64,000 nt of DNA from Selaginella tamariscina (Eukaryota > Streptophyta > Lycopodiopsida > Selaginellales > Selaginellaceae), in NCBI GenBank assembly GCA_003024785.1, contig PUQB01000064.1:496001-560000 (forward strand), read 5' to 3'. Below the pieces are notes generated by a model. The model saw only the letters and a program-made list of their open reading frames with translations, was not told where the DNA came from and ran no database searches. Both the position numbers and the translations under genes were made by a program. Position 1 is the stretch's first letter; the number at the start of each line of letters is the position of its first letter. Positions 5,336 to 36,942 of the stretch are shown in pieces.

Positions 5336-5400
5336 CCAGTTCCAGTGCTAACTATCTCGTTATTCCGAAGAAGACATACTTTATCTTCAGTATTATACAT
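5336..5400 (-). pseudogene. 5' fragment of the DUF7869-type transposase gene (copy A)
   Basis: The sequence matches 33517-33586 of copy B, which holds the start of the transposase-like gene. Only about the first 20 codons survive. The rest is replaced by gypsy element A at about 5335, so this copy cannot supply transposase. Confidence 0.8.
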
Positions 5401-5550
5401 ATTGTCCTACACATAAATAATTGTGTTATTTATGATATCTGTTTATGCAATATTTATAAGAAATCATAACTGCAGTTGCTTAATAATATGCATGTGTAAT
5501 AATACATAATTATATATAAAAATAATATCTCATGCTTTATTAATAAAACT

Positions 5551-6320
5551 GATGGGCGGATTAATCCCGCCGCAGACTCTACCCCTTCAAAGTGAGTCAG
5601 CGGGATTAATCCCGCCGCCGACTCTACCCCATCGGAGAGAGTCGGCGGGATTAATCCCGCCGCGGACTCTACCCCGTCGGAGAGAGGCGGCGAGATTAAT
5701 CCCGCCGCCGATACTTCCTCGTTGGAAAAGAGCGGCGGGATTAATCCCGCCGCGGGCTCCCTCCGACTAGGAAGTACCGGCGGGATTAATCCTGCCGCTG
5801 GATCTTCCTCGTCTGTGAGAGTCGGCGGGATTAATCCCGCCGCAAATTCCTCCGACGAGGAAGAGGGGCGGGATTAATCCCGCCACAACACTGACAACAG
5901 AGAATAGGCGGCGGGATTAATCCCACCCACAACTCTGACGACGGGGAATAAGCGGCGGGATTAATCCCGCCCACAACTCTCTCCGAAACTATGATTTTAA
6001 AGAGATTCGGGATGAATTCTGCCCACAAATATTTAAAACAGGGAAGTAGTGGCGAGATTAATTCCGCCACCCCTTCTCTGCCTCCTAAAATGATTGGCGA
6101 GATTAATCCCGCCAACAACTCTTTCTAATAAATTCAAGTAAATCATTATCCGTTGAAAGAGTTATCGGCGGGATTAATCTCGCCGCTCTTTTTAAAAGGC
6201 GGAGAAGCATTGCTCGAACTAATTCTGCCATAGTTATGAAAGAGATGGTGGCGGGATTAATCCCGCCACCCTTCAAAGAGGAGAAAAAAAATGGCCGAAT
6301 TAATCCCGTCGCCCCGGCTA
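5551..6320. repeat. Palindrome array 1, copy A (45-bp period)
   Basis: The perfect 18-bp palindrome GGCGGGATTAATCCCGCC and close variants recur with centres at about 5562, 5607, 5652, 5697, 5742, 5787 and 5832. These are exactly 45 bp apart. The next steps are 43-44 bp (5875, 5918, 5962), followed by more degenerate copies to about 6320. Intervening 25-bp stretches vary but are often imperfect palindromes themselves (for example ACTCT...AGAGT flanks). The array lies just upstream of the transposase start. Apparent open frames through it (GGINPAA / GLIPP peptides) are by-products of the repeat. It is not CRISPR: repeats are short and palindromic, and the spacers resemble one another. Confidence 0.95.
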
Positions 6321-7640
6321 ACCGAGAATACTAAGTTAAAAGTATATTTAAACGGGATAAATCCCTAACAGAATATATTGTAATCCTAATGCATTCCTAA
6401 ATCCCTAAATTCTAAAATTTAAGAGAGAATGTAAGAGAGTGAATCTTTATAAATATATCTAAATTTGTTTATAATACTTACTTGTAAACAGCACTGAAGG
6501 CGCCGTGCTTTCCTATAAACAATAGCGCACCCAATTTAATGTCGCTCCTGAGCTGATCACTAAGAAGAAAAAGAAAATCTGAAGAGTGAAAATGGAGAAA
6601 CCCTTGCCGGAGAAAGAACCAGATCTGAATTTAGTGGGAAATTAAATGTATTTTCAAATTTACATGTCAAACTGATTATACTTATGTCAAAAATTCAAAA
6701 ATTTTGAAATAACAGAAAAGAAAATTTAAGATGAATTGAAACAAATAACCGACAGTCTGACATATATACTCTCCAATTCCAATGAGTGTTTTAAAATTGC
6801 ATTTAATGTCATTTAAGTGCTTCAAGCTGTTTAATATTATGAAATTTTTGTAATTATTTTACATTCTTAATATTCAAGTATATATTATTAAGTTTATTTA
6901 TATATATAATATATACTAATACAATAAATAAATTGATATATTATTATGTATCATTTAAAAATATAGTCTATTTATTATTATTATTTTTCTTAATTACTCG
7001 AGTAAAATTTACATTTCCTACTATTAATTGGATATTCTTTGTTATTTTCTTAATATTTAAAGAATATTCCACTATTAAACATGATTATCATAAATTAAAT
7101 TAGTCTTATTCTTAATTATCTCAGTAATTATTCTACATTTGTATATATTATAGTGATTTTCTCAATTAATTTGTTATTATTTCAAGAATATTCTAGTGTT
7201 AAACCTTATTATCAATATAAATTAATTATATATTATTAAAACTATATATGGCTATATATTAGATAAAATCATATATTATTATGTATAATTTAAAATATGT
7301 TCATAGTGTGTATATTAATATTATTTTCTTAATTATTCGATGTTTGTTTTGCACATATTATATATAAACACAATCATAAATTTATATATACATGTGCACA
7401 CGCATTAGAAGCACTTACAGAGACACATATGCACACACATGCACATTGCCCTAAACCAAACTTGAGAAATTATATGCTTCTTTATTGAAAAACATCATGT
7501 TCAATGCATGTATGATCTATATGTACTCAGTGTGTGTGTATGTAACACATTGAATTTACACATGTAATATATATGTATGTCTGTGTGTATACACGTGTGT
7601 ATGTATATATGTTACTAATATAATATATGCAATGTGTACG
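6321..7640. other. AT-rich non-coding middle section, copy A
   Basis: No convincing coding sequence. The stretch aligns with 34181-35780 of copy B, which has an extra tandem duplication of about 330 bp in its AT-rich part. Many TAATTA/ATATAT runs are present. Confidence 0.7.
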
Positions 7641-8190
7641 ATTTTCATTTGTTAACACTCTATCTCTCTCATACATACACAGTGTCACCATGCATAATCC
7701 CTTCTCTCATACACCATGCATGATCATGATCCATAATATGTAGCCTGTCTCTTCTTCTCATACATACACACCATGCATGATCCATAATATGTAGATGTTA
7801 CAATATTATGTATATGTATAATGTATATCTGTGTATAACACTCCTCTCATACATAAACACCATGCATGATCCATCTAACCCTAAACCTAAACCCTATGTA
7901 ACACATTGAATTTACACATATAATATGTATGTGTCTGTGTGTATACACGTGTGTATTAATGTGTGTACTATAATCCAATGTGTATGAATTTAATTTGTTA
8001 ACATTCTCACTCTTCTCTCATACATACACACCAATGCATGATCCATGTAAAATGTACTATCTCTTCTCTCAAACATACACACCATGCATAATCCATAATA
8101 TATTGTCACTCTTCTCTCATACATACACACCATACATGATTCTTACTCTGTCTCTAATATTAATATGTATTATATATGTATGTCTATGAT
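7641..8190. repeat. Degenerate minisatellite (ATACACACCATGCATGATCC type), copy A
   Basis: A loosely tandem unit recurs at roughly 60-120-bp intervals. It is built from TCTCTCATACATACACACC, ATGCATGATCCATAATATG and GTGTATACACGTGTGTA blocks. One CCTAAACCTAAACCC telomere-like tract sits near 7880. The same minisatellite is longer in copy B (35760-36620). Confidence 0.7.
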
Positions 8191-8469
8191 AATACTATGT
8201 GTGTAATATGTATCGCTGCACGTGAAACTTTAACACTCTCATGGACACACACGTGTTAAACCCCTGCATGATATTTATTTTGGGTGTATGTGATACACCC
8301 ACGCACACGCACACGCTATATAAATGAAAGAATATTCATTTAGGGCGAATCACTAGTTTAATCTTTTTAGGTTTAATATATTCTTAGAAGCATATTCGAT
8401 TAGGTTAATATATATTCTATTCCTTTTGGTTTAAGTATATCTTAGGTTTTGTAAGGCGCGGCGGGCAGC

Positions 8470-8676
8470 GTGGAAATCTCCTTCTCTCTCTCACACAGGT
8501 GAGATCTCTCTCTCTCTCTCTCACACGCACACTCCTCTGAGTTTATTTATTTATTTTATTCACATATATATTTATATGTGTGTATCTTAATAATATAATT
8601 TAGATCTCTATCTCTCGCACACACACGCACACTCGTTATACATATATACACACACACATTATATATATAATATATC

Positions 8677-8708
<32 letters not shown>

Positions 8709-8716
8709 CTGTGTGG

Positions 8717-8761
<45 letters not shown>

Positions 8762-9320
8762 TTCTCCTTCTCTCTCTCTTCTTCTCTTCTCTCGCACACA
8801 CATGCACACTCGTATACGTATACACACACAGATATATATATATATATATATAATATATATATATAATATATATATAATATATATTCTGTATATATATATA
8901 TATAATATATCCTTTTCTCTCTCTCTCTTCTCTATAGATCTCTATCTCTCACACACATGCACACTCGTATACATATACACACACACACAGATATATATAT
9001 ATATATTCTATTTATTTACTATATATAATGTGTGTGTGTGTTTGTTTATCTGATGATTTTATTTGTTTCACACACGCCATACACACGATATACATATACA
9101 CAATATATATATATATATACCTATGTACATACATATATTGTGACCAGTATCTGTATAATTTTATTTATTTATCTATCTACTCGCACACACATGCGTATAT
9201 ACATATACATATAGTGTGTGTGTGTATCTGTATAATTTATCTGATTTGACTATCTCTGGCACACACACGCACTCTCCTACACACACATATACATATATAT
9301 ATCTGTATGTGTGTGTGTGT
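8470..9320. repeat. (TA)n, (CA)n and (TC)n microsatellites, copy A
   Basis: Long alternating TA tracts (for example 8685-8760 and 8830-8910), CACACA tracts and TCTCTC tracts dominate. Copy B (36900-38090) has the same material, expanded by extra tandem units of about 370-395 bp. No gene is supported here. Confidence 0.85.
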
Positions 9321-10757
9321 AGCGGCGGGATTAATCCCGCCGCTATATGGTGAGACCTGTTGTAGCGCAGGATTAATCCCGCCGCTATATAATTAGCCAC
9401 TCGGCGGCGGGATTAATCCCCACTCATTTGTTACCCTCATGAGTGGCGGGATTAATCCGCCGCCATTTCAGGTCCGAGTGAAGGGCCTGGGCGGCAAGAT
9501 TAATCCCTCTGCCTACGCATGCCCTGCGCGGAATCGGGCAGGATTCCCGCCGCCATTGGCCTGCCTGAAGGGCCTAGGCGGTGGATTAACCGCCGGATTC
9601 CGCACAGAGCATTTGGCGTCCGGCGGGATTACCCGCCGCCATTTCAGGTCCGAGTGAAGGGCTTGGGCGGCAGGATTAATCCCTCCGCCTACGCATGCCT
9701 GCACAGAATCGGGCGGGATTTATCTCGCCGCCATTGGCCTGCCTGAAGGCCTAGGCGGTGGGATTAATCCTGCCGGATTCCGCACAGAGCATTGGCGTCC
9801 GGCGGGATAATCCGCCGCCATTTCAGGTCCGAGTGAAGGGCTTGGCGGCAGGATTAATCCCTCCGCCTACGCATGCCTGCACAGAATCGGGCGGGATTTA
9901 TCCCGCCCGCCATTGGCCTGCCTGAAGGGCCTAGGGGGCGGGATTAATCCCGCCGGATTTCGCACAAGGCATTGGCGTTCGGCGGGATTATCCTGCCGAC
10001 TAAGGCCAAGTGAAGGGCCTGGGCGGCGGGATTAATCCTGCCGCATACGCATGCCCTGCACGGAATCGGGCGGGATTTATCCCCGCCATTGGCCTGCCTT
10101 AAGGCCTAGGCGGCGAGATTAATCCCGCCCGATTCCGCGCAGGGCATTGGCGTCCAGGCGGGATTAATCCCGCCGCCTAGGCCCGAGTGAAGGGCCTGGG
10201 GCGGCGGATTAATCCCGCTCCCTGCGGAATCGGGCGGGATTAATCCCGCCGCCAAAGGCCTGCCTGAAGGGCCTAGGCGGCGGGATTAATCCCGCCCGAT
10301 TTCGAGCAGGGAATTGGCGTCCGGCGGGATTAATCCCGCCGCATAGGGACCGAGTGAAGGCCCTGGGCGGCGGGATTAATCCCGCCGAGCCTTCAATGCC
10401 TGTTGGAGGAATGAATCCCGCCACCCTTCCTTTTTTCTCCATTGGTGAGTCGGACCAATCCCAAACGTTTCTGTCTGAGACGTAGAAGGTTTACAACATA
10501 CCAATGGAGAGAACTGGGAAGGGTGGGAAATTCATTTAACCATCCCTTACATGGTGGGCGAGATTAATCCCGCCTCCTTTCTGGAGTCACTGAAGGGGTG
10601 TGAAATAAATCCTGCCCAGTTCTCTCTGAGACCGAGAAGGGTGGCAAGATTAATTCCGCACTCCCGTTCAAGGCCTCCAGAAAGGTGGCGAGATTAATCC
10701 CGCCCACTCTTTCAGGAGGCATTGAAGGGTGGCGAGATTAATCCCGCCGCACCTTCC
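9321..10757. repeat. Palindrome array 2, copy A
   Basis: The same GGCGGGATTAATCCCGCC palindrome recurs at about 40-48-bp spacing through 1.4 kb. Good copies are centred near 9332, 9374, 9414, 10241, 10287, 10331 and 10377. The spacers differ from those of array 1 and form a higher-order repeat: blocks with ATGCCCTGCGCGGAATC, its reverse complement, CATTGGCCTGCCTGAAGGGCC and CGAGTGAAGGGCCTGGG alternate. Spacers therefore also form inverted repeats. The array ends about 320 bp before the ATG of the ParB-methyltransferase gene. Confidence 0.95.
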
Positions 10758-10780
10758 ATGTGAATATATATGTGTATTAG

Positions 10781-10790
10781 TATATATAAG
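10781..10790 (+). promoter_or_regulatory. Possible TATA box of the rightward genes, copy A
   Basis: TATATATAAG lies just after array 2 and about 290 bp before the first ATG. The same site is at 39702-39711 in copy B. A splice-acceptor-like TTTTGCAG at 11035-11042 suggests a 5' UTR intron. This is position and motif evidence only. Confidence 0.35.
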
Positions 10791-11078
10791 TTGCATATCT
10801 CATTTTATTTACTTTTATCATCTTATCATAATATTTCGAGTAAAAGCTAGGAAACTATGTAAAACTGTCCAGAGCTCACATTTGTGGTGGTTCTAAAACG
10901 AAATGTTATCTTTCTTTTGAAAGCACAAAAGGACAGTTAATTACGTCTACTTCTCTCTGTGTATTATTTTTGTATATTCGGGTTTATACAAGTGTGTGTG
11001 CGTTTTTATATGATTTGTATTCATAGTGTATTATTTTGCAGAAGGACGATTTAAAAACAAGGAGATCGAGTCATTAGT

Positions 11079-14000
11079 ATGGAGTCGTCGTCAAATTCTG
11101 GGTAAGAATTAAAATAAAATCTGTTATACTCGGATATGTGCTTGAACTAATCATTTTTGTATTCAGATGTGGAATTGAGGTGACATTAAAGACGAGAGCA
11201 GGAGAAGAGATGGGCAGGGGGATTCTGGAATCAACTTGGCCATATTTCAAACTAAACGGGAAGCGCATTGGAACAACCATGGTTGCTGTCAAACTAACCT
11301 CTGTCACATCGCATGGACAAGCAAAACAATGGAAAGTGGGTGTGCTAGTCAAGCATCCGAAAGCATGCTGAACCCAGATTGAACGATGCTCGACACATAT
11401 GCCTTGTTCCATCCAATGTCACGTTCTCGGATCCAGAGGTCCAGTTACAACATTAATTTCGGGTGGTTTTGTCGACTTGTGGATAATGACGTTCACGTGT
11501 TCACTAATGATGTTGACCTTGGAGTTCTTCTTCAACTCAACGAAAGCCCATCTATGGAGGGGATCCATCTGGATGTCTACTTCGAAGATCTTCAGACTCA
11601 TCGAGTAGGTGTATTGTCAGGAGATATTGCTTCACAATACAGAAAATCAGCAAGTGGAGCAATCGTCCCTCTTCACATTGAAGAAGAACACAGCGACATT
11701 AAAGGAGATTGAGAGGGTGGCTTGGTCTCAGGTTCTTTACAGATCACGTTCAATTTGCTTAGCAAATTTCGGGAGCTGGAAGAGTGTGCCGAGAACATTA
11801 GAACAGCATCAATCGGGGATCACACATGTTGATTCGGATCGTAGAAGAAAATCATTAGTCGTTTTGTCAGCTGCACCTGTGGCGTCCCATGCTGCAATAA
11901 GCCACAAGGAAATGATGTTGGATGATAGGATTTCCAGTGTAGGGTTAAGTATTGCAGCGTCAACCCAAACTTCAATTACAGGCCACTCAATCAGGAACGT
12001 GTAGCTGAGCTCATGGAGAAGATGAAGGACGACAATTCTTACACCGTTCCACATAATGCTGTTTTTGCGCATACGAAAGAACAAAGGCGCTGACAAAGTG
12101 TGGATCACAACACCGAACAAATGAGGAAGGTTCAGACGGAGAATAGAAAATCATTAAGTACTACATCATTAGTGGCCAGCACACAATAACGGCAGCCCAA
12201 CGACTTCTCGACGAACACAACAAAGGAACGATGGCAACAAAACTTTCCGAGCATACCCGTGAGAAGCTGACGAAAAGATCGGCGTTTTTAGCGAAGCCGA
12301 ATCTCACAATCGAGCAGTACCATAAGTTATCGGCGGAATGGGACGCTGCAGACACCAACCACTACAACAGCAAAATATGGGAGAAGTTCAAACACACGCG
12401 AGCCGTGTGGGAATCTCTTCAGCGACCACAAAGAGCTACCGCAGGGAATACACAATCTGCGGACTACCGGGTAAGCAAATTGTTTGGGCGGGATTTATCT
12501 CGCCGGTATATTAATCTGTCTTTTTCTCAGAGAGTTGAAGAAATTGTAGCAGTTGATTTTGCCCAGGTGGGGGGAAGGAAACATCCTTTTTGATGATGTT
12601 GATTTCTTGTCCCGAGGATAGGATCTTTGCAAATGGTTGGGGATTATGGAATCCTTTGCAAAAGGAACACTGAAGAAGAAGCAGACAAGTGAAGTGGAGC
12701 CCTCAGAAGTCTGCAAAGAAACCCAGTAAGACGCCGAAGGCTAAGTCTGTTCAATCTAAAGGATGTAGACAACGATTTCAAGCTCACATGGTTGAAGCCT
12801 TTAAATGGAACAACGATGGAGGAGATGGAAGTCTTGGCTGATTTGGTGATTGATGGCAAATTACAATTAACAACAGCAGCCCACCTCTCCTTTTCATCTC
12901 AAGGCAATGGAGTTGAAGACGGTCAGGCACTTCAAGGAGTGGTTGGGAATACACTGCCACAAACTGGGTTGGATTTCGGCTTCAACATACGAAGAGGTCA
13001 GCAAATATTTGCATGTGACAAATGATGATATGCTTGTCGAATGGGTGAATCAATCGGAAGATCTGGGCAAGAATCTATTGCACGCCAACGCCAAAAAGGA
13101 GAACATTGCGATGACGCCTTCTCTTATGGCAGTCCTTCAGCAGCGGAGAACCGAGTTGAACCTTATAAAGGAGGATGCTACGAATCACGACAAGCCCTAC
13201 AGATGTTTGTTGTTGGATTCGGAGACTTTATGGGGTACATCACTGCTTGTAGGAAACCGTTTCAATTGTTCGTGATGGATCGGCGGGTGTCAAAAAATCC
13301 TTCGACAGACAGGACACTAGAGGATTTGGTGGAGAAACTTAGCCGTGCAAGCATGTACAAAGAAGGTATTTATTATTGAATTCATACTTGCACTCTTGAC
13401 TGATATCTACGTTTTCAGGTATTTATTTCTTGATTCTTGCTCATGTCACCGATACCTTTGCCTTCCTTTGCCAAGAGGAATAAACATCGTTGGACAGGAT
13501 TTTATATGAATGATGCTGATCCGAAGTGCATTGATTCGGTTGTTCACTTGGTTGTTAGGAATGCGCCAAACATTTCAAACTTCCAAATGACTGGCCAGGC
13601 ATCTGTTTGCACTCCAACGGCCCTGAACCTCCATCCGATACACCGATAGGTGAGAGTGACGTATTCGGCAATGTACGTTATCCAAACATCACAAGTCAAG
13701 CGGCACGGAGCATCGTCAACTTGATCAGGGGTCCTCACAGTGATGCGTGGGTTTTTGACTACTGCACTAGGGGGTCCGTCTTGAAGGAGTGTTACCTTCG
13801 GCATACATGTGTATTTGCCGTTGAAAAGGATAAGACCATGGTTGAGGACCTGAACAAGTGGATAGATAGGTTCTCAACTGAGTACCCCAACGAATCCATA
13901 AAGGAGTATTTGAGAAAGTTCCCTCCAGATAAGTGCGATAGCTCTGAAGACGAATCTGGTTCAATGTCGGAGTCTGAGACGAACTTCAATCAGATATTAG

Positions 14001-14163
14001 ACCGGAAGTTATCTCGAGGAGTACAGAACATTCGCACACTCCATTACCCATGGAAACATCAATAGAAGATGCAGAAGATCTTGAACCATCTCACAAGCGG
14101 CTTAGACCTTCTTCGCCTCACTCAGAAGGTAATAGCGAAGAAGAATTGTTAATGAATTGTTAG
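11079..14163 (+). pseudogene. ParB-like domain plus DNA N4/N6-methyltransferase-like protein, copy A
   Basis: Exon 1 (11079-11101, MESSSNS) is spliced at GT to exon 2 at 11167 with the Gly codon split correctly. An unrecognised N-terminal region follows (KTRAGEEMGRG, WFCRLVDNDVHVFTNDVD). A ParB/sulfiredoxin-like domain begins near 11940 with NPNFNYRPLNQERVAELM and ends with YYIISGQHTITAAQRLL-type sequence near 12210. Introns: 12471-12530 (60 bp, containing a palindrome) and 13366-13418 (53 bp). The C-terminal half resembles N4/N6 methyltransferases: RYPNITSQAARSIVNL, DAWVFDYCTRGS (motif I position) and VFAVEKDKTMVEDL. The motif IV position reads MDRRVS instead of a DPPY-type motif. Frameshifts near 11368, 11440, 12070, 12600 and 13970 break it. 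A tail frame ending at the stop 14161-14163 contains HKRLRPSSP, which looks like a nuclear localisation signal. Known use of this domain pair: phage and mobile-element DNA modification proteins. Its role here is inferred. Confidence 0.6.
12486..12506. repeat. Array-type palindrome inside an intron, copy A
   Basis: GGGCGGGATTTATCTCGCCGG is a slightly degenerate copy of the array palindrome. It lies inside the 60-bp intron 12471-12530, more than 1.7 kb from the nearest array. Confidence 0.8.
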
Positions 14164-14271
14164 AGTGACGAATAGTTGTAAATGAGTGTAACATAAGGCA
14201 TTTTTGTATATTTCGTTTATATTTGTACAGAAAATAAATTCTCAAGGATTAATGAAGCTTTTAGTTCAAAC

Positions 14272-15349
14272 ATGGGTCACACATTAACAAGGTAAATAAT
14301 ATACCTTGATAATTTTAAGGTCAGCTAATTATCATTTTGCAGATGTAATGAAACAATTGAGAACATGGATTTTCAGCATTGGCATGAGGTAAGAGAGGGG
14401 TTTGGCGACAATTTCTTGTGCCACATGTCAGAATGACAGAGTTCATGCAGGAAATGGATAATAATGCAGCTCAAAACATCGTTACCATGGGGGCCACTTC
14501 AGTTTTTCATCATCATTTTTATTGGCTTCAGTTCCGAAATCAATTTCTTCAGCGCATGCAATATCTGAATCTTGTAAGGATGATGTACAATTAAATGATG
14601 AAGGGATAGGCAACGAGATAGTGGCAACGGATAAATGTGAAAGGGAGCAAACAAGTGATTTGCAAAGTATTCAAGAGGCAACGCTATCTCATGTTACTCA
14701 TGGCCATATTGTGTTGTTGGATGTCAATGGTGTTCTGCTTCATCGACAAAGGCCCGAGGATAGGAAAAAAGAAATCAAACAAGGAGATTTCATTCCTTGT
14801 CATGGTAAATTTCGATATGATATTATTTTTCGTCCAGGGTTGGATCGTCTCTTTCAAAAGCTTAAGGAGATGGGTGCGCTTGTGGGGATTTGGTCATGCA
14901 TGCAGATTCATAACTTAACACCGCTGTTGAATTTGCTTAAGAAACATTGTAGTGTTGCAGAAGAGGTGATTCGTAAAGATTGGATTTTTGACCAGCGAAT
15001 GTGTTATAAACCTCTCGAATTTCACAATATAAGAAAGGAAAGCAAGCCATACTTCTTCAAGAATGAAAGAATAATTGGGACTCATGGGGAGATCAGTCGC
15101 TTAAGGATAATGAAGAATGCACATATTAGTAGACGACTCTCCTCAGAAGGCTATGCTCAACCAAAACATTGCTTGTATTCATCCAATCACTTTCGATCCA
15201 TATTCTGATACCGATATCATGGATGAGCTAGTGAACTACTTGGATACGTGCCTCAGAAAGAAGAATCTCGAAAATTTTTGTGAGCAGTATCCACCGTATC
15301 ATACATTTCCTGAAGCTTTTCTTTCTCGTGATTTGAATTTTATAAAATG
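14272..15349 (+). pseudogene. FCP1/NIF-like HAD phosphatase domain protein, copy A
   Basis: Proposed exons are 14272-14291, 14343-14388 and 14451 onward. They join in frame as MGHTLTR / CNETIENMDFQHWHE / EMDNNAAQ. The domain starts with HIVLLDVNGVLLHR, the position of the HAD nucleophile motif DxDxT: the first Asp is kept and the second is Asn. IWSCMQIHNLTPLL follows, then LVDDSPQKAM, the HAD acidic motif, in this copy after a frame change near 15117. FCP1-like phosphatases dephosphorylate phosphoserine on proteins such as RNA polymerase II CTD. Whether this one is active is uncertain. It lies about 110 bp after the methyltransferase-like gene in the same orientation. The last residues seen in copy B are lost here by a further frame change near 15347. 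Confidence 0.7.
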
Positions 15350-15853
15350 AAGGATAGCAACCGGGCGCTTTATAATATTATTCTTAAGGAACGTCATTTT
15401 TAGATGAGCCTTTATGCAGACCTCTCTTATTACATCTTATGTATTAACAAGGATGGCAACTCCCAATTGCATTCGTGAGAGTGTTAGTGGTGGCAACAAC
15501 ATCAAGATATTGACCAAAATGATTTGATTAATCCGGAGAGTGATGATTTAGACAAAATGAGGAGATTTTCTGTATGTTAGGAAGAAAGTATTTATAAAAA
15601 ATTAACATGTTGATAAGAAATGATTTCATTTGTAATTATGTTTGATAGTATTTCTTCATTATTGTAAACTATTTTTAGAATAATATGAATATTCTAAGAT
15701 ATTTTAGGAATATTCCTTACTAAGTAAGGTTATTGAAGGATTAATTAATTAATTAATTAATATTTAAGGCTTAATTACATATTAATTAAATGATTAATTA
15801 ATAATTAAAACTTAAGTATTAATTAGTAATTTTATATTCCCATTTTCACGTAT

Positions 15854-15880
15854 CATGCCCACTTTAGTTACAACGTGCAT
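15854..15880 (-). repeat. Right terminal inverted repeat, copy A
   Basis: Read on the minus strand it begins ATGCACGTTGTAACTAAAGT and ends GGGCATG. It is identical to the right end of copy B at 44451-44477. Homology between the two copies stops exactly here, which supports a transposition boundary. Confidence 0.92.
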
Positions 15881-19882: not shown

Positions 19883-20878
19883 TGTCATAGTTTCTACTAT
19901 GACTCCTCTTTTACTTTGGATGTTGACTGTTGTTACCTACTGAGTTATGTGATGAACCCTAGATGTAGAAGAAACAGGCCCGCATAGTGCACTTGGGTAT
20001 TTAGTGATGGTCCGGCCGGGTGTCATTAGGTATTTGTAAGAAACTTTAGGCGAAGCTAACACTTCCATTTAGAAAACTCTTTTCCGTTTTGACGTTCCAG
20101 GTTAGGGGTTTTTGCAAAGTATAGCTTGTCAAAATAAGGGTTAGGGACACCCCTAAGATTGACCTAACCCACGCCCTAAACCCCCCCTAGGGGTTTAGGG
20201 TTAGGTTAAGACAACTCAATTTCTCTAAGGGTTGGCATTTTCCGTGCCAGCCCATTTACCTTGTAGGGGTGTTCTCCTAGGATCTAAGGGTTGAACAACC
20301 TAAGCTCATTAGCAAAAAGCCCTATCATGAGACACTCGCAAGGTCATATACTTAGGGTTATCCAAACTTAACCTTAAAGAGTTTGCTTAAGTAGAACATT
20401 TGTGTTCGCTTATGGCGCACACTCATGTCCTCACTAAGTACTAACCCTAGGTCTAGGGTATGACTTGGCCACTCGAACCCTTAAGGGTTAGTCGTGGTTC
20501 AAGGTACCCCTTGTTTTGCCCTAAAAGGGTTGTTCTCCCAAATGAGGTGATTCCTTAAGGGGTAAGTGACGATGCCTTAGCTCTATCATGGGGGCATGTG
20601 TAAAGCACATCTCCTTTGTAGGGTTAGGGCATGAGCCTGTCTAGGTCTTACTGGGATAGGATTTCTAAAGTCTACTCAGGATATCCTCTAGGGTTCAGGA
20701 GAGGTCATTCTAGGGGGCTTAGGGTATTACTCTAAGTCTTCTGTTTAACTAGGATCTAAGTTAGACTCTTAGGGCATTCTTATAAGACTTAGCGTTATTC
20801 ACACAGGGAATTGACATCGGAAGGCCACTTGCAGCAAACGTATTGCCACGCATTATCCTCTAGGTTAAAACTCTAACA
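19883..20878 (+). repeat. Forward LTR with internal deletion
   Basis: Starts TGTCATAGTTTCTACTATGAC and ends CTCTAACA. It is about 700 bp shorter than the full LTR at 20902-22611: the middle between CAGCCCATTTAC and AGGGGTGTTCTCC is missing. Confidence 0.8.
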
Positions 20879-20901
20879 ACAACTCAAAAAGAGAAGTGAA
20901 T

Positions 20902-22611
20902 TGTCAGAGTTTTTAACCCAAAGGGCCAACACATGGCTACCAAGTGGCCATTCAGCGTCATCACCCTGTGTGAGCAATGCTAAGTCTTCCAAAAATCCTT
21001 AAGAGTCTGACTCAGATGCTAGTTAAATAGAAGACTTAGAGTAATATCTTAAGCCCCCTAGAATGACCATCTCCCGAACCCTAGAGGATATCCTGAGTAG
21101 ACTTTAGAATCCTATCCTAGTAGACCTAGACAAGCTCATGTCCTAACCCTACAAAGGAGATGTGCTTTACACATGCCCATGATAGAGCTAAGGCATCCTC
21201 ACTTACCCCTTAAGGAATCACCCTCATTTGGAAGAGAACAACCCCTTTAGGGCGACAAGGGGTACCTTGAACCACGACTAACCCTTAAGGGTTCGAGTGG
21301 CCAAGTCATACCCTAGACCTAAGGTTAGTACTTAGTAAGGACATGAGTGTGCGCCATAAGCGAACACAAATGTTCTACTTAAGCAACTCTTTAAGGTTAA
21401 GTTTGGATAACCCTAAGTATATGACCTTGCGAGTGTCTCATGATAGGGCCTCTTTGCTAATGAGCTCTTAGGTTGTTCAACCCTTAGATCCTAAAGGAAA
21501 ACACCCCCTAGCAAGGTATGCCCAAAGCCACCTAGTTACGAGACCTAACCTCCCTTGAGCAAATGCTCAAAGTTTAGCACCCTAGTACTAACACAAACAT
21601 GTATGTTTACTAGAGTATCCAACCCCTTGGCGACAAACCATGACACAACCCCAAAGGGCGTGCCTCGGGTGTTGTATCGTGTGACTTCTAGTCTAGTGTC
21701 ACATCTCCATATGACATTGCCTTCCATGATGTGGCTATCATGCTATAACTCTTAAATTCAAGAGTTGCACCAAGTGCCACAAACGTGGCTCCTAAATGTC
21801 AACTTTAGAACCTCTTAGTGAACCCTTACGAACTGGGTAATGTGAACCCGTCAAACAAGATCCCACGCCCACGGTTGGACAAGGACACGAATGTGCCTTG
21901 CTTGACCATGAGTGCTACACCTAGCTTGACGTGGAGGAGGAGGCTGGGACAAGCCGCAACCTTTGCCTCTTCGAATGTGCATTCCGACAAGACCTTCCAG
22001 GCATGGATTCGCCAACATTAAGGATGTGCTACCCTAAAGGTGGGACGTACCCCTGTCATTTGGAAGTTAGGGCGGCACAACAGAGGGTTGTACCTTAACG
22101 ACACAAGCTAGAACTTGCAATGGCAAGAGCAACGAACTCAGTTATGAACTCAAGAGCCCCCCCCCCCCCCCCCCCAACTTTTCCTGAATATGTAAGTGGG
22201 CTAGCACGAAATTAGCTAGCCCCTTATTAAGTTAATGAGAGTGTTTAACTTAGCCTAACTCTAACCCTAAAAACCTACCCAAGGTTTTTAGGGCGTGGGT
22301 TAGGGCAACCCTAGGGTTAGGTCAACCCTAGGGGTGTTCCTATCCCTACTAAACATGCTGAACTCATCTACATTAACCAATTAGCCTAACTGGGATGTCA
22401 AAATTGGGAGTGGGTTTTTAGAAGGTAAGTTCTAGCTTCGCTTAGAGTTTCCTACAAATACCTAATGACACCCGGTTGGATCATCACTAGATACCCAAGT
22501 GTATTAAACGGGCCTGTTTCCTGCTACATCTAGGGTCCATTAACATAGTACAGTAAGTAACAATAATCAACATCCAAGTAAAGGGTTTGAATCATAGTAA
22601 AAACTATGACA
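20902..22611 (-). repeat. Full-length LTR, reverse orientation (1.7 kb)
   Basis: On the minus strand it starts TGTCATAGTTTTTACTATGA and ends CTCTGACA, with canonical TG...CA ends. It includes a 19-base poly-C run near 22157-22175 and a CAAGTGGC-rich terminal part. It has no adjacent internal region, so it could be a solo LTR or half of a rearranged element. Confidence 0.82.
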
Positions 22612-26410: not shown

Positions 26411-26821
26411 CCATCTGCAAATGAAGAATATTAAAAAAACTTTAAAAAAGACCAAATGAACATCAAGAACAAACTCATACACATAAGACAAGTAGGCACT
26501 CTATAAAATTCTAAGAAATTCTAAAAATGAGCCAGATCCTAAGATCCTAAGACATTACCGGAGTCTAAAGAATTAAATCAAGCCTATGACAGCATGACAC
26601 TCTTTAAAACTATTGTTCCTGAACAACAGTCAATTCCAAAGAAGAAGGTTGAACTATTAATTTGCGTGTTCTCATGTCTTTTATTGAGACAATTTTGGGG
26701 TTTGCCGGCCTGTTCAGTGAAATCCTGACAAAGAAGCATTCCGATGCCATCAATCCTTTGGACTGTGAAAAAGTTGATATAGAAAAATTTGTGACAAATT
26801 CGAATCAATTTTAATAAAAGA

Positions 26822-28357
26822 TCATATGGTGGGATCCTTATACCGTTTGTAAATCTCTTCTACTCCGGCCGTGACGTGTAGTGGAAGAGGCCTAATTACA
26901 TTAAATGCATTAATGTTTTCTTTCAGTTGGTTTATTGTGGTGGCGCCAATAATGCTACTTGTCACAAAGGGACGATCACGAACATATCCCAGTGCAAGCT
27001 CGACAGGTGTGAGACCATGCTGCTCAGCAAGGCCGATGTACTTGTCCACAGCTTCCTGTTGATAAACAAATAGCATAATTCATAGAGTTGTTCTACATAA
27101 ATGTTAAATACCTTCGCAGGGGAGGATTTGTATCTGGCCATGTATCCTGGAAACACATTAAACCTTCCCCCTTTGGCTGCTAGGCTGTCTGGGTTGGCAT
27201 ATTTCCCAGTCAGGGCCCCGCCCGCGAGTGGGAATACGCCAGTAAGCCAACATTGCAGTTGTGGTGACTGCATACTTCCGCCAAATCAACTGGACAATGT
27301 GAAATGTCAACAAAGAGGACAGTATCAAAAGCAATGCACCTTCAAAGCGACACCGCACCAGCAGGCTATAATTGTTTTGGATGCTCACTATCTTTTCAAG
27401 CCCAAGCGTTTCAGCAACATCTGTAAATTTCATCACTCCAAATGACGTTTCATTCGATACTCCAATGTGCCGGACCTGCGAGAGATATGTGTTCAAGTAA
27501 TCAAAATAACATGTCATCTATATCTTACTTTGCCCTCTTCTATCATGGCCTGCAGAGCTCTTAGTTGGTTTTCAAAGGGAACGCTCTCTCTCCACCTCGT
27601 TACATCGTAAAACAGCTCGCCAAAAAGAGGCACATAGCGGTCGGGCCTGTTGCAAGAAAATAACCATGAGTGACTATCATCTATGTCTTAAAACTAACCA
27701 ATGTATCTGAAGGAGATCAATGTAGTCGGTTCCAAGGCGTTTCAAACTTTTTTCAACGCTTTCCTTTATATTTTCTGCATTAACTCTAACGGTTTTTCCA
27801 CTCTCTCTGAGGTACACAGATCGATCTGAATAGCCTGCAACTTTGGTTGCAAGTACTATCTATATAACAAAGTGAGAACAAGTTAACCAAGAAAGACATG
27901 ATAGTGCTTGCCTTGTCTCGCTGTTGGGTTTTCAGCCACGACCCAATGTAACGGTCAGTCCGGCCTTGGGTGTCTTTAGTCGGAGGCACAGGATACTGGA
28001 CCAAACGAGTTTTAAGCTCTTGAAATCATAAACCAAGCTCCGTACCATTTCGGCAGTGTCCAATATGTTAATGCCATTGTCAAATGCATAATTAAGCTGC
28101 TCATGTGCATCTGCCTCCGTGTTCTGGACACCCCATGTCATCTGCGATAGCATTTCATGTCAGCTAAGCCAAGTCTATAATATGCCAAATTTTACCGTTC
28201 CAAGAGTGACTTCACTGACCACAAGGTCAGAATTTCCTAGCTTGTTATAACGCATTGAAGCACAGACAGTGCTGCTCAAAGTGCCAGCTCTCAATGCACT
28301 CTGCACTGAAACTGGGGAGACGAGCTCAAGGCGGCCATATTTGAGCCAAAAAGAGCC
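26822..28357 (-). CDS. Aldo/keto reductase (Tas-like), split gene
   Basis: Eight exons can be delimited on the minus strand: 28357-28196, 28141-28046, 27995-27912, 27859-27699, 27646-27529, 27475-27340, 27289-27112 and 27055-26822. Introns are 50-56 bp with GT-AG ends, except 27911-27860, which is GC-AG. The tetrad of NAD(P)H-dependent aldo/keto reductases is visible: Asp and Tyr around ILDTAEM/YPVPP, Lys in LATKVAG and His in LLQIHW. C-terminal cofactor-loop sequence (SSIIGATTINQLKENI) follows. MRYNKLGNSDLVVSEVTLGT starts at 28255. The Ser/Thr-rich residues before it could be part of a plastid transit peptide whose first exon I could not find. One C seems missing in a CCC run near 27235, shifting frame inside LLAYSPLAGG: a real lesion or a sequencing error. 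This is the only clear host gene in the window. Confidence 0.85.
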
Positions 28358-28360
28358 CTA

Positions 28361-29486
28361 GCACACGATTGAGATAATGTGTGGAATCAGTTTGCTGCCT
28401 TCTGAGGGCTTAACAGAATTAAGCCACGTGCAGGAACCTGCATAAGTTGGGACGGTGCCGTCGACTCCAGCCGCGTACTGGAAACCTTGCGGCCTTTATC
28501 TAGCAAAGTACAAAGAGAATGCTATTGAAAGACGAGAGGATCGTAATGAAGGAGACGTCATGGGCATACTTGCTCATAAGAACATATTACAGCACGATCT
28601 CCACTTTCATCTTCTTTTCTTGACTCCAGGATAGTTCCATAGAGTTGCAAACACACCCGAACCCAGCTATACCATAGATTCAATGGATTGTGCACTGCAT
28701 TTATAAACTTATCAAGCACGCAGAGGAAAGTGAGTTTGTCTGGCTCTGGACCCTGAGCCAGCATTGCCTCAAAAAGGCTTCATCAGCAAAATAACACTAG
28801 GAATAAGCAGAAACAATTGTTGAACGAGAGACTTGAAAGAGTATGCGAGCTAATCAGGAAAGAACGTCCGGTGGGACAAATTGATTTGTAAAGCTGCAGC
28901 TTTTAAGTCGTCTTATGCGCAAAACCTTTGAGCCGCATTATCTCATCAGACACAAGGATATCCAGCAGTGACATGGTTAGAACTAGGTATCGACGCAGTC
29001 AAGAGGCAGTAAATTTCATGGTCGTCATGACAGAGGGCCATCCTTGAAGTGGCTCAAATGTAGACGGACCGGACCTCTTTTTGCCCTTTTCTGTGATGAT
29101 GGGACGAAAATAACGACATTTTACTACAGGCAGTTTTCTAACCGCCTGTTCATTATAATATCTTCGTTCCAAAAGATATACTATTTCTACTGTGCGCATA
29201 TAAAGCATTAAGCCATATGATTTCTGCACATGACGTATATTGGGGAGTACGATGGTTGCTCCATCACACAGGTATAAACAAAAATGCGGGCACATATGCT
29301 AGAACTGGCTCATGAATCACGTAAAAAAGGAGAACGGATTGCTCAAGGCAGTTTCCCTTGGGCAAGTCCTTGTGTGTGTTTCTCGATTCCAAGCAAGCTA
29401 GAGCTCTCAGTGGTAAATTAAAACATCACTTATGAACTGGGCATAAAAATAAATTGTTAAAATTAAATATTATATAAATTAAACAC
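28361..29486. other. Intergenic sequence upstream of the reductase
   Basis: It probably contains the promoter and any first exon of the reductase gene. Two minus-strand open frames (28558-28764 and 28999-29295) have no recognisable domain, and I do not call them genes. Confidence 0.45.
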
Positions 29487-29621
29487 TGTGAGAACTCCGA
29501 ATATAGAAATGTATATATCCATTACTTTAGAAACCTAACTTATGTACAAAAGCGAGTGGTTCAGATTGAAACTAATCGACGGCTATCAAACCCATTATTC
29601 CAATAAGAGTGGATCAATACA
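29487..29621 (-). repeat. 3' LTR of old element B
   Basis: On the minus strand it starts TGTATTGATCC after a purine-rich run (AAGAGGAAGGGAATGA) and ends GTTCTCACA. It matches 55001-55161 (shared ACCACTCGCT, ATGGATATA, TTTCTATATTC). Confidence 0.8.
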
Positions 29622-29736
29622 TCATTCCCTTCCTCTTGAAAGGATGTAAGTTGGTTTCTCTTGTAAATAGACCCAGATCTGGAGAAACATTAGAAGGAGG
29701 CATTGGTGGATTTATATGTGGCACAACTTGTTTCTG

Positions 29737-29960
29737 TTACACAAAATGCTTCAACCGTCGCACGTGTACAATCTCCAAAGGATTAGGTTGAATGTCGTGC
29801 CGAACCTTATAAACTTGCGGCCCTACTTGCCGTAGCACTCGATATAGTCCTTTCCACTGAGTAATGAGACTCTTAATTAAACCACGTACCATAAACTTAA
29901 GAAAATGAACCAACACCAGTTCCTCAACCTTGTACTCTGCAGGTGGACAATGGTGCGAGT
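29737..29960 (-). pseudogene. Integrase C-terminal end of old element B
   Basis: Reads PPAEYKVEELVLVHFLKF through GPQVYKVRHDIQPN to RRLKHFV and a stop at 29737-29739. The frame continues without a break into the integrase at 44478 when the intervening 14.5-kb element is removed. It resembles the integrase end of element C. Confidence 0.88.
29957..29960. other. Target-site duplication GAGT, left
   Basis: GAGT directly precedes the left TIR and is repeated at 44478-44481 after the right TIR. Confidence 0.9.
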
Positions 29961-29987
29961 ATGCAAGTTGTAACTAAAATGGGCATG
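29961..29987 (+). repeat. Left terminal inverted repeat, copy B
   Basis: Begins ATGCAAGTTGTAACTAAAAT and ends GGGCATG. It differs from the inverted right end only at positions 6 (A/C) and 19 (A/G). Confidence 0.93.
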
Positions 29988-30462
29988 GCTATAGTCCCAT
30001 TTCCTAATAATTAGCAATTTTAGCTATTTAATTAATATTAAAGGAATATTCTTTAGAATATATTTGAAAAAGAATATTCTTTAGAATATTCTATTTTGTA
30101 TTCTACCCTTTAATAAATTATAGCATTCATTGAACAAAAATTAATAACATTATAAAAGTAAAGGTATTAAATATATATATTATATAATTATGCCTAATAT
30201 AACAATTAAGGAAGAGCATAAGAGGTACATTATATAAATATTGATGTTGTTATTAAAATATTAATATTTAAATATAACATTATTAATTAAAAATTTGTAG
30301 TAGTAATAATATATATATATATATAAAACCTATAATAATATAGTCAATCTTCCATATCTTTTTTAAATTTATATAGTTAAGTATACAATTTGGTACTATT
30401 ATTAAAGAGTTTATAATAATTATGAATATTAAATATATGATATTTTATAATTTGTAATTGCT
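29988..30462. other. AT-rich subterminal region
   Basis: Non-coding, very AT-rich, between the left TIR and the transposase stop. It contains repeated AGAATATTCTTTAGAATAT blocks near 30045-30095 that could be subterminal motifs. Confidence 0.45.
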
Positions 30463-33400
30463 TTAAGCTTCAGAAAACATACATTCCCTTGCAGTTTTGT
30501 TAATCGTGACTTTATCAACGCTTCTTGACATCCACCCATATCGAATGGATTTAACATTTATAAAACATGCTGGGTCTTTTTGATTGGGAGACCATGTTTT
30601 CTCTAGGCATCCATTATATCTTTCGCTCTCCTTCTCGTGTCGCCTTTTTTGTGGTTTGAACCATGCAACCTTAACAATACTATTTTTTGTGATTACTTCA
30701 GGTGTGTCGATAATTTGACCCATCCAAATAGGCTGATTATATGACGCATCTGGAGTAATGAGAACCATCATTAGTTTTTGAAGATCCTTGCAGCAATCAA
30801 AGTATGCTTTAGGTTTTTGGTTCCTTTGTCCAACAAAGTGTGGGGTTTGCACTTCCACATCACTACTGGCTTCTATGTCGTCTGTGCTCAGTGATGTCAT
30901 TTCAATCTCCTCTCGCCACCTTGTTTTAGGCCAAAAGGGTGTTGCAATTCTGTACTTGTGACAGTAGGCCCTTCCAACTCTCGAACAACAGTCTCCCAAT
31001 AGTCGACCACATGCTTATATAGTTCTGAGTAACCAGTTGCCTTATCAGAATTCTTTGGCATCGATTTTTGAACCCATGCCACATATTTTTTGATGCCATC
31101 AATAATAACCTCTTGTTCCTTGAGCTGGGCACTCAATGGAATAGGGTCTGGTTGTCCTTCTGGGAGAAGTGGCTTTCCATCCTCTCCACTTTTGAAGAGC
31201 ATTAAGCCCTCTTTCGGTAACCACTCCTGCTCTGATGGCCGTAACTTGTACTGCATAATAGGTATACCATCTCGTATGGAGAAAAAGAATTGTAGCGGCA
31301 CAAGGTGACCAACTAAAGAATCACTCCCTTCTTTTATATACTCCTTGAGAAATTTTTTGAAGTCTGGCACCTCAGTCACAAGCAAAGCACAACTTTTTTT
31401 GGAGATGCAATTTTCAAAAAGATTCATCATATGCGGTAAGGTAAGTGCACTTGTCCTTTTTGTAGAGTTGGAGACCTTGCTGAAGAACGCATCAATATCT
31501 TCATGAGTGTGACCAACCATAAGGAAACTGAGCGTGATTGTTTCAAACACACCTTTGGCAACAAGCATTGACAAGTATGCTAGCACATATCTAGAAAATA
31601 AAAGTAAGTATGAGCTTGAGAAACCCTTAAGTAAAATGATTTACCTATTTTTGTTCTCGCCTGCACAATTATCCATCTGTAAAAGCAAATGACGAGGAAG
31701 CTTATTTGATGTTGAGGACACATGTACACTATTTGAGCTAGATCCCTCCACTGAACCAGAACTCTCAACAGGGCCATCTGTTTTCTGTGCAGGCTGTTGA
31801 CAATGCCTCTCATATTCCCAAGTAGCCTCAAGTGCAGACGTGTTCATGAGAGCATTATGTAAAGGTTGAAGGTGTTGTTTCTTCACTTTGAGATCACTGA
31901 TAGGACTTGTCTGTGAGTGGGCTTCAAGGTTTCTGAAACACATGGCTAACGACCCAATAGTGAAATTGGAGTCGCTAGACCAATGTGGAAGTGAAAAGTG
32001 TCCATATGACTCACAACCGTGTCCATGTGTTAGCACACCTGTCAATGAAATCGGAAGTTTCATGACATTTCCAAGGCACTTTGGTGTTGCAAAGAGCTTT
32101 GGAATGCTGGTCTTTGAATGATCCATCTTGTCATGGATCAAGCACAGGTACTCTGATGGGCGTGACACAGAAAGCATGCGGTGTGCATAGTACTGAGACC
32201 GGCAAGTTTGTTGTGCAATCATGTGGGCCTCCATCTTCTTTTGAATGGCAGTGATCTCCACCAAGGTTTTTGCACAAGCCTCTGCAGCCTTCAATGATGT
32301 ACAAGTGTCACACTTGGAAAAGCTAGAGTGTTTTGCAATCTCCACATCCTTAAAATGAGTATTCCATATGTTGTTGAAGGTACCAGTGCAGATTGCTTGG
32401 AGCCCCATCAAACTGAGGCACTTGTTCACATGTTCACACAGCTTCAATTGAGTGTAGATTGAAGGCAAAACCTTGAGATTTTCCCTGACCCCTGCATTTG
32501 TGGTTCGGCATTTGTGAGGCATCCTGTCTGCATTTGCTTCCACAAAAGCCTTGAGTATCTCTATGGCTGCCATGATGTGAGAGCGGGTTTTGACCAAGCG
32601 AGTGTTCCCATGAACTGAGGTTCGCGCTCCATCTAGCCACTCATCCCTCCGACGGTAGAACGTGGTCTTTGGGATCCCGTATATACTGTACCAAGCTTTG
32701 AAGCAGATGGCCACCTTATTAAATACCATGGATGTACTCTGATAACCTGTGTCCGAGGCCATTCCATCAATACACCCAGTTAGTGCAGCATATACAAACT
32801 CATGCCTTTGCTTTTGGGTGAGCATACGAAAGACATGTCTACATTGGGTAATTTCATTCCGGTCTGCCATCTGACAACACTTCTTCTTGCAACAGTCAAT
32901 CGTGGAAATGCTCGTAACACTTTCGGAAGATGTAGGATCCATCTTTACCCTCTTGCTGAAACTTGCAGGGGAAGATCTACAACCCATGAATCGCCTTTTT
33001 CTTACAATAGGACCAATGCAAGGAACCTCTTCAAATATGAGTTGTTCTTCCGGGTTGTTATTATTGAAATCCAACCCAGAATATGTTGAACCATCTTGCC
33101 GTCTTAATTCAGATGTTCGCCACCTCACGAGGGATCCAGGATACAATGTGCCATTAGGTGAAACCTCTGTCACAACTACACCCACGAAGTCGGACCCTAG
33201 TTTCTCTTCTGACACTGCTTCCATTGGATTTATAGCTGTGATGATGCCTCTTCCGACTTCAATCTCACGAAGAAAGAGAATCACCTCATCCATCACAGCA
33301 GGCAAGCCATCATCTGGTAAACTCGTGCTACTATTTGTTTGTGACTCTGCATATTCTGTGTCAGCCTTGACTTCATCCAAATTCCACAATACAGGAGAAC

Positions 33401-33593
33401 CCTCCTCAAATTCCATTCCCAGAACCTCAACATGCTTGTAAATGGTGTTCACCCATACGTACACACAAGATCCTTGGGCAATATTGTGACATGATGCATT
33501 ATTATCTCGAACTTCCACAGTTCCAGTGCCAACTATCTCGTTGTTCCGAAGAAGACATACTTTATCTCCAGTATTAAACATATTGTCCTGCAA
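30463..33593 (-). CDS. DUF7869-type DDE transposase-like protein
   Basis: Exon 1 is 33593-31645, a 54-bp GT-AG intron spans 31644-31591, and exon 2 runs from 31590. The start Met (MQDNMFNTGDKVCLL) opens a beta-rich N-terminal region. Cys-rich CCKKKCC (near residue 240) and SKCDTC (near residue 430) could bind zinc. Three acidic blocks fit an RNase H-like DDE core: IHDKMDHSKT (Asp about 485), LQMDNCAGENKN (Asp about 641) and VGHTHEDIDAFF (Glu about 680), with the second and third about 39 residues apart. The intron falls just after the second block. A frame change near 30930 separates the last ~150 residues, whose PIWMGQIIDTPEV...VKVAWFKP stretch resembles a BAH/Tudor-like fold. It is probably the mobility protein, transcribed away from array 1. 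It is intact apart from that one shift. Confidence 0.8.
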
Positions 33594-33704
33594 TATATAT
33601 ATATGATATTTCTAAGAAATCTGAATTACGGTTACTTAATAATATGCATATGCAATAATACATAATTATGTTTAGAGATAATATCTCATGTTTGATTAAT
33701 ACAA

Positions 33705-34180
33705 CTGATGGGCGGGATTAATCCCGCCCACGAATCCCTCCGACGAGGAACGGTCGGCGGGATTAATCCCGCCGCCGACTCAACCCCTTCGGAGAGAGTC
33801 GGCGGGATTAATCCCGCCCACAATTCTTACGACGGGGAATGGGTGGCGGGATTAAACCCGCACATAACTCTCTCCAAAACTATGATTTCAAAGAGATCTC
33901 GGGATAAATCCTGTCCCCAAATCCTTAAAACAGGGAGTGGTGGCGAGATTAATCCCGCCACCCCTTCCCTGCCTCCTAAAATGGTTGGCGGGATTAATCC
34001 CGCCGACAACTCTTTCTAATAAATTCTGGTAACTCTTCATCAGTTGAGAAGGTTATCGGCGGGATTAATCCCGCCACTCTTTTTCAGTGGCGGAGAAGCA
34101 TTGCCCGAGAGATGGTGGCGGGATTAATCCCGCCACCTCTTCGAAGAGGCGAAAAAGAAATGGCCGGATTAATCCCGCCG
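33705..34180. repeat. Palindrome array 1, copy B
   Basis: GGCGGGATTAATCCCGCC units are centred near 33719, 33764, 33809, 33853, 33906, 33950, 33995 and 34066, then near 34115 and 34170. Several steps are exactly 45 bp. It is shorter than in copy A (476 bp versus about 770). It starts about 110 bp upstream of the transposase ATG. Confidence 0.95.
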
Positions 34181-35760
34181 CCCCGGTTAACCTAGAATAT
34201 TAAGTTAAAAGGATATTTAAACGGGATAAATCCCTAACGGAATATATTATAATCCTAATGCATTCCTAAACCCCTAAATTGTAATTTTAAGAGAGAATGT
34301 AAGAGAGTGAATCTTTATAAGTATTTTTAAATTTGTTATATAATACTTGTAAACAGCACTGAAGGCGCCGTGCTTTCCTATAAAGAATAGCACCCAATTT
34401 AATCTCGCTCCTGAGATGATCACTATGAAGAAAAAAGAAGATCTAAAGAGTGAAAAATACAGAAATGAAGAAACCCTTGCCGGAGAAAGAACCAGATCTG
34501 AATTTGAGTGGGAAATTAAATGCATTTTCAAATTTACATGTCAGACCGACAATACATATGTCAGAAATTCAAATTTTTTAAAAAGAACAGAAAATAAAAT
34601 TTAAGATGAGTTGACACAAATATCCGACACTCTGACATATATACTCTCCAGTTCCAATGAGTATTTTAAAATTGCATTTAATGTTATTCAAGTGATTCAA
34701 GCTGTTTAATATTACGAAATTTTAGACTATATTCTACATTCTTAGTATTCAAGTATATTTATATTATATATATATATAAATATATACTTATACAATAAAT
34801 AAATTGATATATTATTATGTATCATTTAAAATATATTCATAGTCTGTTTATTATTATTATTTTCTTAATTACTCGAGTATTTAGTTTTCATTTCCTAGTA
34901 TCAATGGGATATTCTTTATTATTTTATTAATATTTGAAGAATATTCTAATATTAAACCTGATTATCATAATTAAATTAGTCTTGTTCTTAATTATTGCAG
35001 TAATTATTCTACATTTGTATATATTAATGGGATTTTCTCAATTAATTTGTTATTATTTCAAGAATATTCATGTGTTAAACCTTATTATCAATATTAAATT
35101 AATATATATTATTAAAACTATATATGACTATATATTAGATAAAATGATGTATTATTATGTATAATTTAAAATATGTTCATAGTGTGTATATTAATATCAT
35201 TTCCTTAATTACTTGAGTAATTAATCTTCTTTATATTAATGGGATATTCTTTATTATTTTTTCTTTATTTATTCAAGAATATTCCAATATTAAACATGAT
35301 TATGATAATTAATTTAGTTAATTATTTGAGTACTTAATTTACATTTGTATATATTAATGGGATTTTCTCAATTAATTTCTTATTATTTCAAGAATATTTC
35401 AATGTTAAACCTTTTTATCAATATTAAATTAATATATATTATTAAAACTATATATGGCTATATATTAGATAAAATCATATATTATTATGTATAATTTAAA
35501 ATATGTTCATAGTGTGTTTATTAATATTATTTTCTTAATTATTCGATGTTTGTTTTGCACACATATATAAACACAATCATAAATTTACACACGCATTACA
35601 AGAACTTACAAAAACACATATGCACACACATGCACAACCCTAAACCAAACTGAAGAAATATGTTGCTTCTTTATTGAAAACATCATGTTCAACGCATGTA
35701 TGATATATGTACTCAATCTGTGTGTATGTAACACATTGAATTTACATGTGTAATATTTAT
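34181..35760. other. AT-rich non-coding middle, copy B
   Basis: No gene seen. A block of about 200 bp ending in GTATAATTTAAAATATGTTCATAGTGT occurs twice (about 35020-35200 and 35345-35530), a tandem duplication of about 330 bp absent from copy A. The sequence is otherwise collinear with 6321-7560. Confidence 0.65.
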
Positions 35761-36620: not shown

Positions 36621-36899
36621 TATTGATACACATGAAACTTTAACACTCTCATGGACACACACATGTTAAATCCCTGCATGATTTATATTTTTGGGGTGTA
36701 TGTGATACACCCACGCACACGCACGCGCTAATAATATAATGAAAGAATATTCGTTTAGGGCGAATCTATATTTTTATTTACTCTCAGAAGGAATATTCTC
36801 TTAGGGTTAATATATATATTTAATTCCTTTAGGGTTTAGGTATATTCTTAGGGTTTCAAGAGGCGGCGGCTGTGAAATTGGCGACGGCTATGCACACAG

Positions 36900-36909
36900 G
36901 TGAGATCTC

Positions 36910-36942
<33 letters not shown>

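Follow-up and report, generated by a model that had tools for sequence, protein, structure and literature searches.

Arrays of an 18-bp palindrome between the divergent genes of a putative DUF7869-type transposon of Selaginella tamariscina: candidate sites for a dimeric regulator

Our analysis of a 64,000-bp stretch of the Selaginella tamariscina genome (positions 496,001 to 560,000 of contig PUQB01000064.1, assembly GCA_003024785.1; the window below) finds four arrays of an 18-bp palindrome within two copies of one element. Self-comparison places these copies at 5337–15880 (copy A) and 33518–44477 (copy B), in blocks of 79–97% identity, and copy B goes on leftwards from 33518 to 29961. We take copy B (29961–44477) to be a complete 14,517-bp DNA transposon of the DUF7869 type with a 4-bp target duplication, because it has terminal inverted repeats (29961–29987 on the plus strand and 44451–44477 on the minus strand, alike at 25 of 27 positions), GAGT on both sides (29957–29960 and 44478–44481) and flanks that join in one frame. 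When the element and one GAGT are removed, a single frame crosses the junction, with one stop close ahead of it, and resembles the C-terminal region of a gypsy integrase (compare the relative at 25191), and keeping both GAGT copies breaks this frame; the nucleotide match to the relative at 25191 stops short of the junction with either one or both GAGT copies. The termini of the element are ATGCA. Copy A has the same right end (15854–15880), but most of its left part is gone, including the left end and all but the first bases of gene 1, and it abuts a gypsy gag fragment.

Gene 1 (30463–33581, minus strand, predicted start codon at 33581) is transposase-like and matches the DUF7869 profile PF25273 with E = 6.5e-41 (one frame, stops read as X). 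Scoring of 4754 candidates gave eight relatives, and the viral_contigs and genome_contigs collections yielded no confirmed relative; the relative P0001 is 34% identical to the first long open reading frame (ORF) of gene 1 over nearly its whole length, with the starts aligned. The string HDKMD is invariant in all nine aligned sequences, LQxDN and GHTHEDID are present in the consensus, and by eye the protein looks like a DD(E/D) transposase. Gene 2 (plus strand, 40012–42756 in copy B and 11079–14065 in copy A) has predicted introns and a frame that is broken in both copies. A 37-residue stretch near the N-terminus of its product resembles a stretch of the gene 1 product (BLASTP E = 2e-5 in a single comparison), and at 40885–41412 gene 2 reads YYIISGQHTITAAQRLL, a string that by eye is like ParB motifs. 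A DNA methyltransferase read by eye at the degenerate C-terminus of gene 2 (42323–42754) found no support in Pfam, NCBIfam or PHROGs, nor, with a single one of its two pieces compared in each case, among PDB sequences or phage records, and was rejected. Gene 3 (43009–44136, plus strand, in copy B) resembles NIF phosphatases (PF03031, E = 2e-10, with stops treated as X). Between the copies, three blocks of gene 2 have ratios of nonsynonymous to synonymous change (pN/pS) of 0.20, 0.18 and 0.29, and gene 3 has 0.32, each value being based on 4 to 19 changes. This NIF/CTD-phosphatase-like gene (14340–15560 in copy A) is among the parts best conserved between the copies, with 1.8% of aligned positions changed.

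The region 5551–10757, singled out by a first, sequence-only reading, holds two arrays, and the second copy adds two more. Array 1 occupies 5554–6310 in copy A (15 palindromes scoring at least 14/18, with six 45-bp intervals at its left) and 33711–34179 in copy B (9 such palindromes); array 2 occupies 9324–10748 in copy A (25 such palindromes, partly in a higher-order repeat of about 178 bp at 9445–10387) and 38101–39669 in copy B (27 such palindromes). The arrays thus hold corresponding places in the two copies but differ in site number. They are separated by 3.0 kb of AT- and CA-rich DNA in copy A and 3.9 kb in copy B (34180–38100, AT-rich with CA/TA microsatellites), and short plant telomere-like AAACCCT runs lie within the latter at 35770–35900 and 36320–36360. 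Array 1 of copy B starts 130 bp from the predicted start codon of gene 1, and array 2 ends 331 bp (copy A) or 343 bp (copy B) from that of gene 2, and in copy B 3.75 and 4.8 kb of sequence separate the arrays from the ends of the element. The arrays are therefore in the non-coding middle of the element, between divergent genes and near both predicted start codons, and are not subterminal.

The motif is far more frequent than chance would give: GATTAATC occurs 63 times in the window against 1.67 expected from 100 dinucleotide shuffles, and the 18-mer GGCGGGATTAATCCCGCC with at most three mismatches occurs 71 times against 0.01 expected, 70 of these in the four arrays and one in an intron. A solitary palindrome (16/18) lies in a predicted intron of gene 2 in copy A (12487–12504), with a 14/18 counterpart at 41425–41442 in copy B. 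The description of these sites as perfect palindromes holds for 28 of the 76 array sites that score at least 14/18, and for three of the seven evenly phased ones (5644, 5734 and 5824). Positions A7, T8 and A11 are invariant in all 76, but these sites were chosen by score; lower-scoring slots, for example shortened ones in array 2, fall outside the count, so conservation taken from the scored sites is biased upward.

The seven consecutive array 1 centres reported as exactly 45 bp apart are indeed so spaced (5554, 5599, 5644, 5689, 5734, 5779 and 5824), and are followed by steps of 43, 43 and 44 bp. Over all four arrays this spacing is modal and not constant: among the 72 intervals between sites scoring at least 14/18, 39 measure 43–47 bp, four measure 86–92 bp and 29 have other lengths between 31 and 176 bp, and some of the longer intervals contain a weaker 13/18 site. 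Nor are the spacers of array 2 unrelated, as had been thought, since that array holds a higher-order repeat of about 178 bp made of four palindromes and four spacers. Comparison of 59 spacers of 10–40 bp from all four arrays gives 150 related pairs out of 1711 in direct orientation and 89 as reverse complements, where 1.7 are expected at the threshold used. Within the 178-bp repeat a spacer alternates with its approximate reverse complement, an arrangement that goes with long predicted hairpins; a symmetric motif would let a spacer invert without harm to the array. Tandem Repeats Finder reports periods of 44, 45, 90 and 135 bp in array 1 and of 44, 46, 90, 167 and 355 bp in array 2. When orthologous intervals are compared (omitting one site lost in copy B), five of 17 are equal in both copies and 12 differ by 1 to 24 bp (–24 to +3), and helical coherence (R = 0.38, 0.43 and 0.46 at 10, 10.5 and 11 bp) tells no more than does the mode near 45 bp (R = 0.64). 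The idea that spacing itself is under selection is not borne out by these values, since duplication also passes on spacer length, and the period is best read as reflecting duplication more than selected spacing.

The motif has nevertheless outlasted its surroundings in part of the arrays. The seven 45-bp units of array 1 were picked by their palindromes, but the comparison kept a fixed register: adjacent units have 93% identity in the palindrome as against 58% in the spacer, and at separations of one to five units the values are 89–93% and 52–58%, respectively; 3 of the 45 possible rotations of this block, the true one included, reach this difference. Comparison of the two copies over three orthologous stretches (array 1, the tail of array 2 and the middle of array 2) points the same way more modestly, with 19 changes in 370 palindrome positions as against 74 in 732 spacer positions (P = 0.011 by rotation and 0.006 by Fisher's test). 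Spacers changed at 13.4% of positions in array 1, 8.1% in the array 2 tail and 9.4% in the array 2 middle; the corresponding figures are 7.5%, 1.8% and 8.6% for the palindrome arms and 7.8%, 0 and 1.8% for the palindrome cores.

Because the motif outlasts its surroundings, lies near both start codons and varies in copy number, we consider a set of binding sites the best reading of the arrays: clustered cis-acting sites between the divergent genes of a DUF7869 transposon, recognized by a dimeric regulator that is probably encoded by the element. We give this reading about an even chance of being correct. Each 18-bp palindrome would be the putative site of a dimeric DNA-binding protein, and with many sites near both start codons such a protein might control both transcription units or keep them free of silencing, in the manner of VANC on VANDAL elements. 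Tandem duplication made the arrays grow and shrink and set the periods of about 45 bp and, at the higher order, about 178 bp; selection would afterwards have kept the motif better than the spacers.

Several observations weigh against this interpretation. In the array 2 middle the arms changed nearly as often as the spacers, and when the contrast between copies, of which there are two, is split by base class it keeps its direction but is not significant (P = 0.11 for A/T and 0.06 for G/C). Among the array 2 repeats, seven 178-bp units (five from copy A and two from copy B, a partial one being left out) are 86.6% identical in palindromes and 85.8% in spacers. As many as 178 of 300 rotations reach this difference, although palindromes have fewer gaps than spacers (3.6% versus 9.6%). 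The sequence-only reading had named spacers that diverge no faster than palindromes as the mark of ordinary tandem duplication, and array 2 shows just this, whereas array 1 and, modestly, the comparison of copies show the reverse. Compensated changes in the palindrome arms are not above chance, one of three doubly changed pairs being compensated. In gene 2, no profile match above its cut-off suggests a DNA-binding domain. Relatives of the arrays were not found in viral_contigs or genome_contigs, neither of which is a plant collection; the former has one stretch with the exact palindrome, near chance by a rough estimate, and the latter no palindrome pair. Finally, VANC21 motifs are described as arrayed in one orientation, and neither VANC paper has the string "palindrom" in its main text.

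The rival that survives best, which we regard as possible but rather doubtful, is a minisatellite without function, in which tandem duplication multiplied a unit that carries the palindrome, and both period and motif persist only through recent duplication and homogenisation. The Tandem Repeats Finder periods in both arrays, the 150 related spacer pairs and the fact that array 2 palindromes diverge as much as their spacers are as this explanation would have them; the fixed-register contrast between array 1 neighbours and the excess of spacer changes between copies are not. A coding version of the minisatellite (45 bp = 15 codons) was rejected: the longest open stretches lie within those of 300 shuffles per array (P = 0.19–0.99), and the 43–44-bp steps also break frame.

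A bolder form of the binding-site reading, which we think unlikely, is that the arrays belong to a second, independently evolved plant anti-silencing system in a non-Mutator DUF7869 transposon, whose reader would be the gene 2 product, its ParB-like segment loading at the sites and spreading. In VANDAL elements, proteins of the transposon are known to recognize tandem arrays of a motif and to counter silencing. A comparable layout built on a palindrome, in an element that seems unrelated to them, would point to repeated origins of such systems; the palindrome also offers a defined bait for finding its reader protein. VANC21 motifs are packed into tandem repeats that lie in the introns and upstream regions of VANDAL21 genes (PMC5735166); VANDAL copies have gained or lost such repeats relative to one another, and through VANC methylation is lost over the whole element (PMC5735166, PMC10398659). 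The present arrays share with these a short motif that is tandemly repeated at high density, placed in non-coding DNA of a plant transposon, ahead of one gene and within introns of others, and varying in copy number. The VANC21 and VANC6 motifs are, however, 9 and 8 bp long and non-palindromic as spelled, in contrast to the 18-bp palindrome here, and VANDAL elements are Mutator-like, whereas a DUF7869 gene and a 4-bp duplication mark this element. No Pfam match to the VANC-type domains DUF1985 or DUF287 was found in three frames each of 39901–44300 (plus strand) and 29001–33600 (minus strand) or in single ORFs. The likeness to VANC may thus concern how the element works, and does not imply membership of VANDAL. 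Literature searches found no paper with the full set of anti-silencing and palindrome terms, and neither the spelled palindrome nor DUF7869; shorter pieces of the motif matched two papers whose titles look unrelated. Relative CpG content (observed/expected) is 0.93–1.22 in the arrays, 0.61–0.78 in the spacers alone and 0.62–0.79 in genes 2 and 3; CpG protection as a sign of hypomethylation was rejected, since the richness of the arrays comes mainly from the palindromes and the spacers are like genes 2 and 3.

It is improbable that the palindromes are sites for a host transcription factor of the E2F type that ties expression of the element to the cell cycle. Their GC-rich palindromic arms near both start codons would fit such a factor, and the half site AATCCCGCC presumably resembles an E2F-type site. 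The most conserved part of the motif is ATTAAT, not CCCGC, which argues against an E2F site, though the CG and CCG sites of the arms may mutate more.

We hold it to be just as improbable that the arrays act through their structure, as cruciforms or as a hairpin RNA that feeds small RNAs. For two array stretches the predicted RNA folding is much lower than in 100 shuffles of either (z = –15.1 and –16.8), inverted arms reach 76 nt, spacers recur as reverse complements, and Rfam lists microRNA precursors at E values up to 2.4e-8. Every array of palindromes folds in this way, however, so the z values are not independent evidence, and in array 1 of copy B (B1) the spacer reverse-complement 8-mer count of 13 lies within the shuffle maximum of 14. 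The Rfam matches are all far under their gathering scores, as for a generic hairpin fit, and a microRNA precursor was rejected on this ground (the best match, MIR3454 at E = 5.7e-7, has 44.3 bits where the gathering score is 142). The cruciforms that had been suggested can form at these sites, as at all palindromes, but changes in one half are independent of those in the other (88 one-sided and 3 two-sided changes, 4.2 of the latter expected), with the single compensated pair noted above.

Loading of a ParB-like clamp, encoded by gene 2, at the palindromes and its spreading from them as at parS, although the sites are palindromic and clustered and the gene 2 string suggested ParB in the sequence-only reading, is very improbable: profile searches of Pfam, NCBIfam and PHROGs list no ParB family for a 175-aa gene 2 piece (limit E = 10, although library filters drop most matches above 0.1), and a homologue was found neither at E = 0.001 among 35 candidates nor at E = 1 among 7991 scored.

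As for the class of the transposon that carries the arrays, CACTA (En/Spm) elements also have a reiterated motif that is taken as bound by an element protein (TNPA), and two of the six DUF7869 relatives scanned (P0001 and P0006) give a weak, sub-cut-off match to TNP1/En/Spm PF03017 near the N-terminus. The repeats of CACTA elements are subterminal and their duplications 3 bp (PMC2613891, PMC8978399), whereas this element has ATGCA ends, a 4-bp duplication and central arrays. Sola elements have 4-bp duplications, are present in the moss Physcomitrella and in some cases exceed 15 kb (PMC10741241); copy B agrees with them in duplication length, as judged from one insertion. The Sola2 duplications described for slime moulds (PMC3627910) are AT-rich, which GAGT is not.

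Other features of the window lie outside the two copies. A 1.26-kb inverted repeat at 20257–21518 (arms of about 0.63 kb, 88% alike) adjoins repeats related to 1–734, 48546–49295 and 54008–54992. At 26800–28900 on the minus strand, exons read by eye resemble an aldo-keto reductase, and none of five frame pieces has a Pfam match at E = 0.01. The end of a gypsy integrase, with SH3-like and chromodomain matches, lies at 53096–53635. The right end of the window (55000–64000) is strongly depleted in CpG (observed/expected 0.19, against 0.40–1.22 in 18 other measured stretches), which suggests old methylated DNA.

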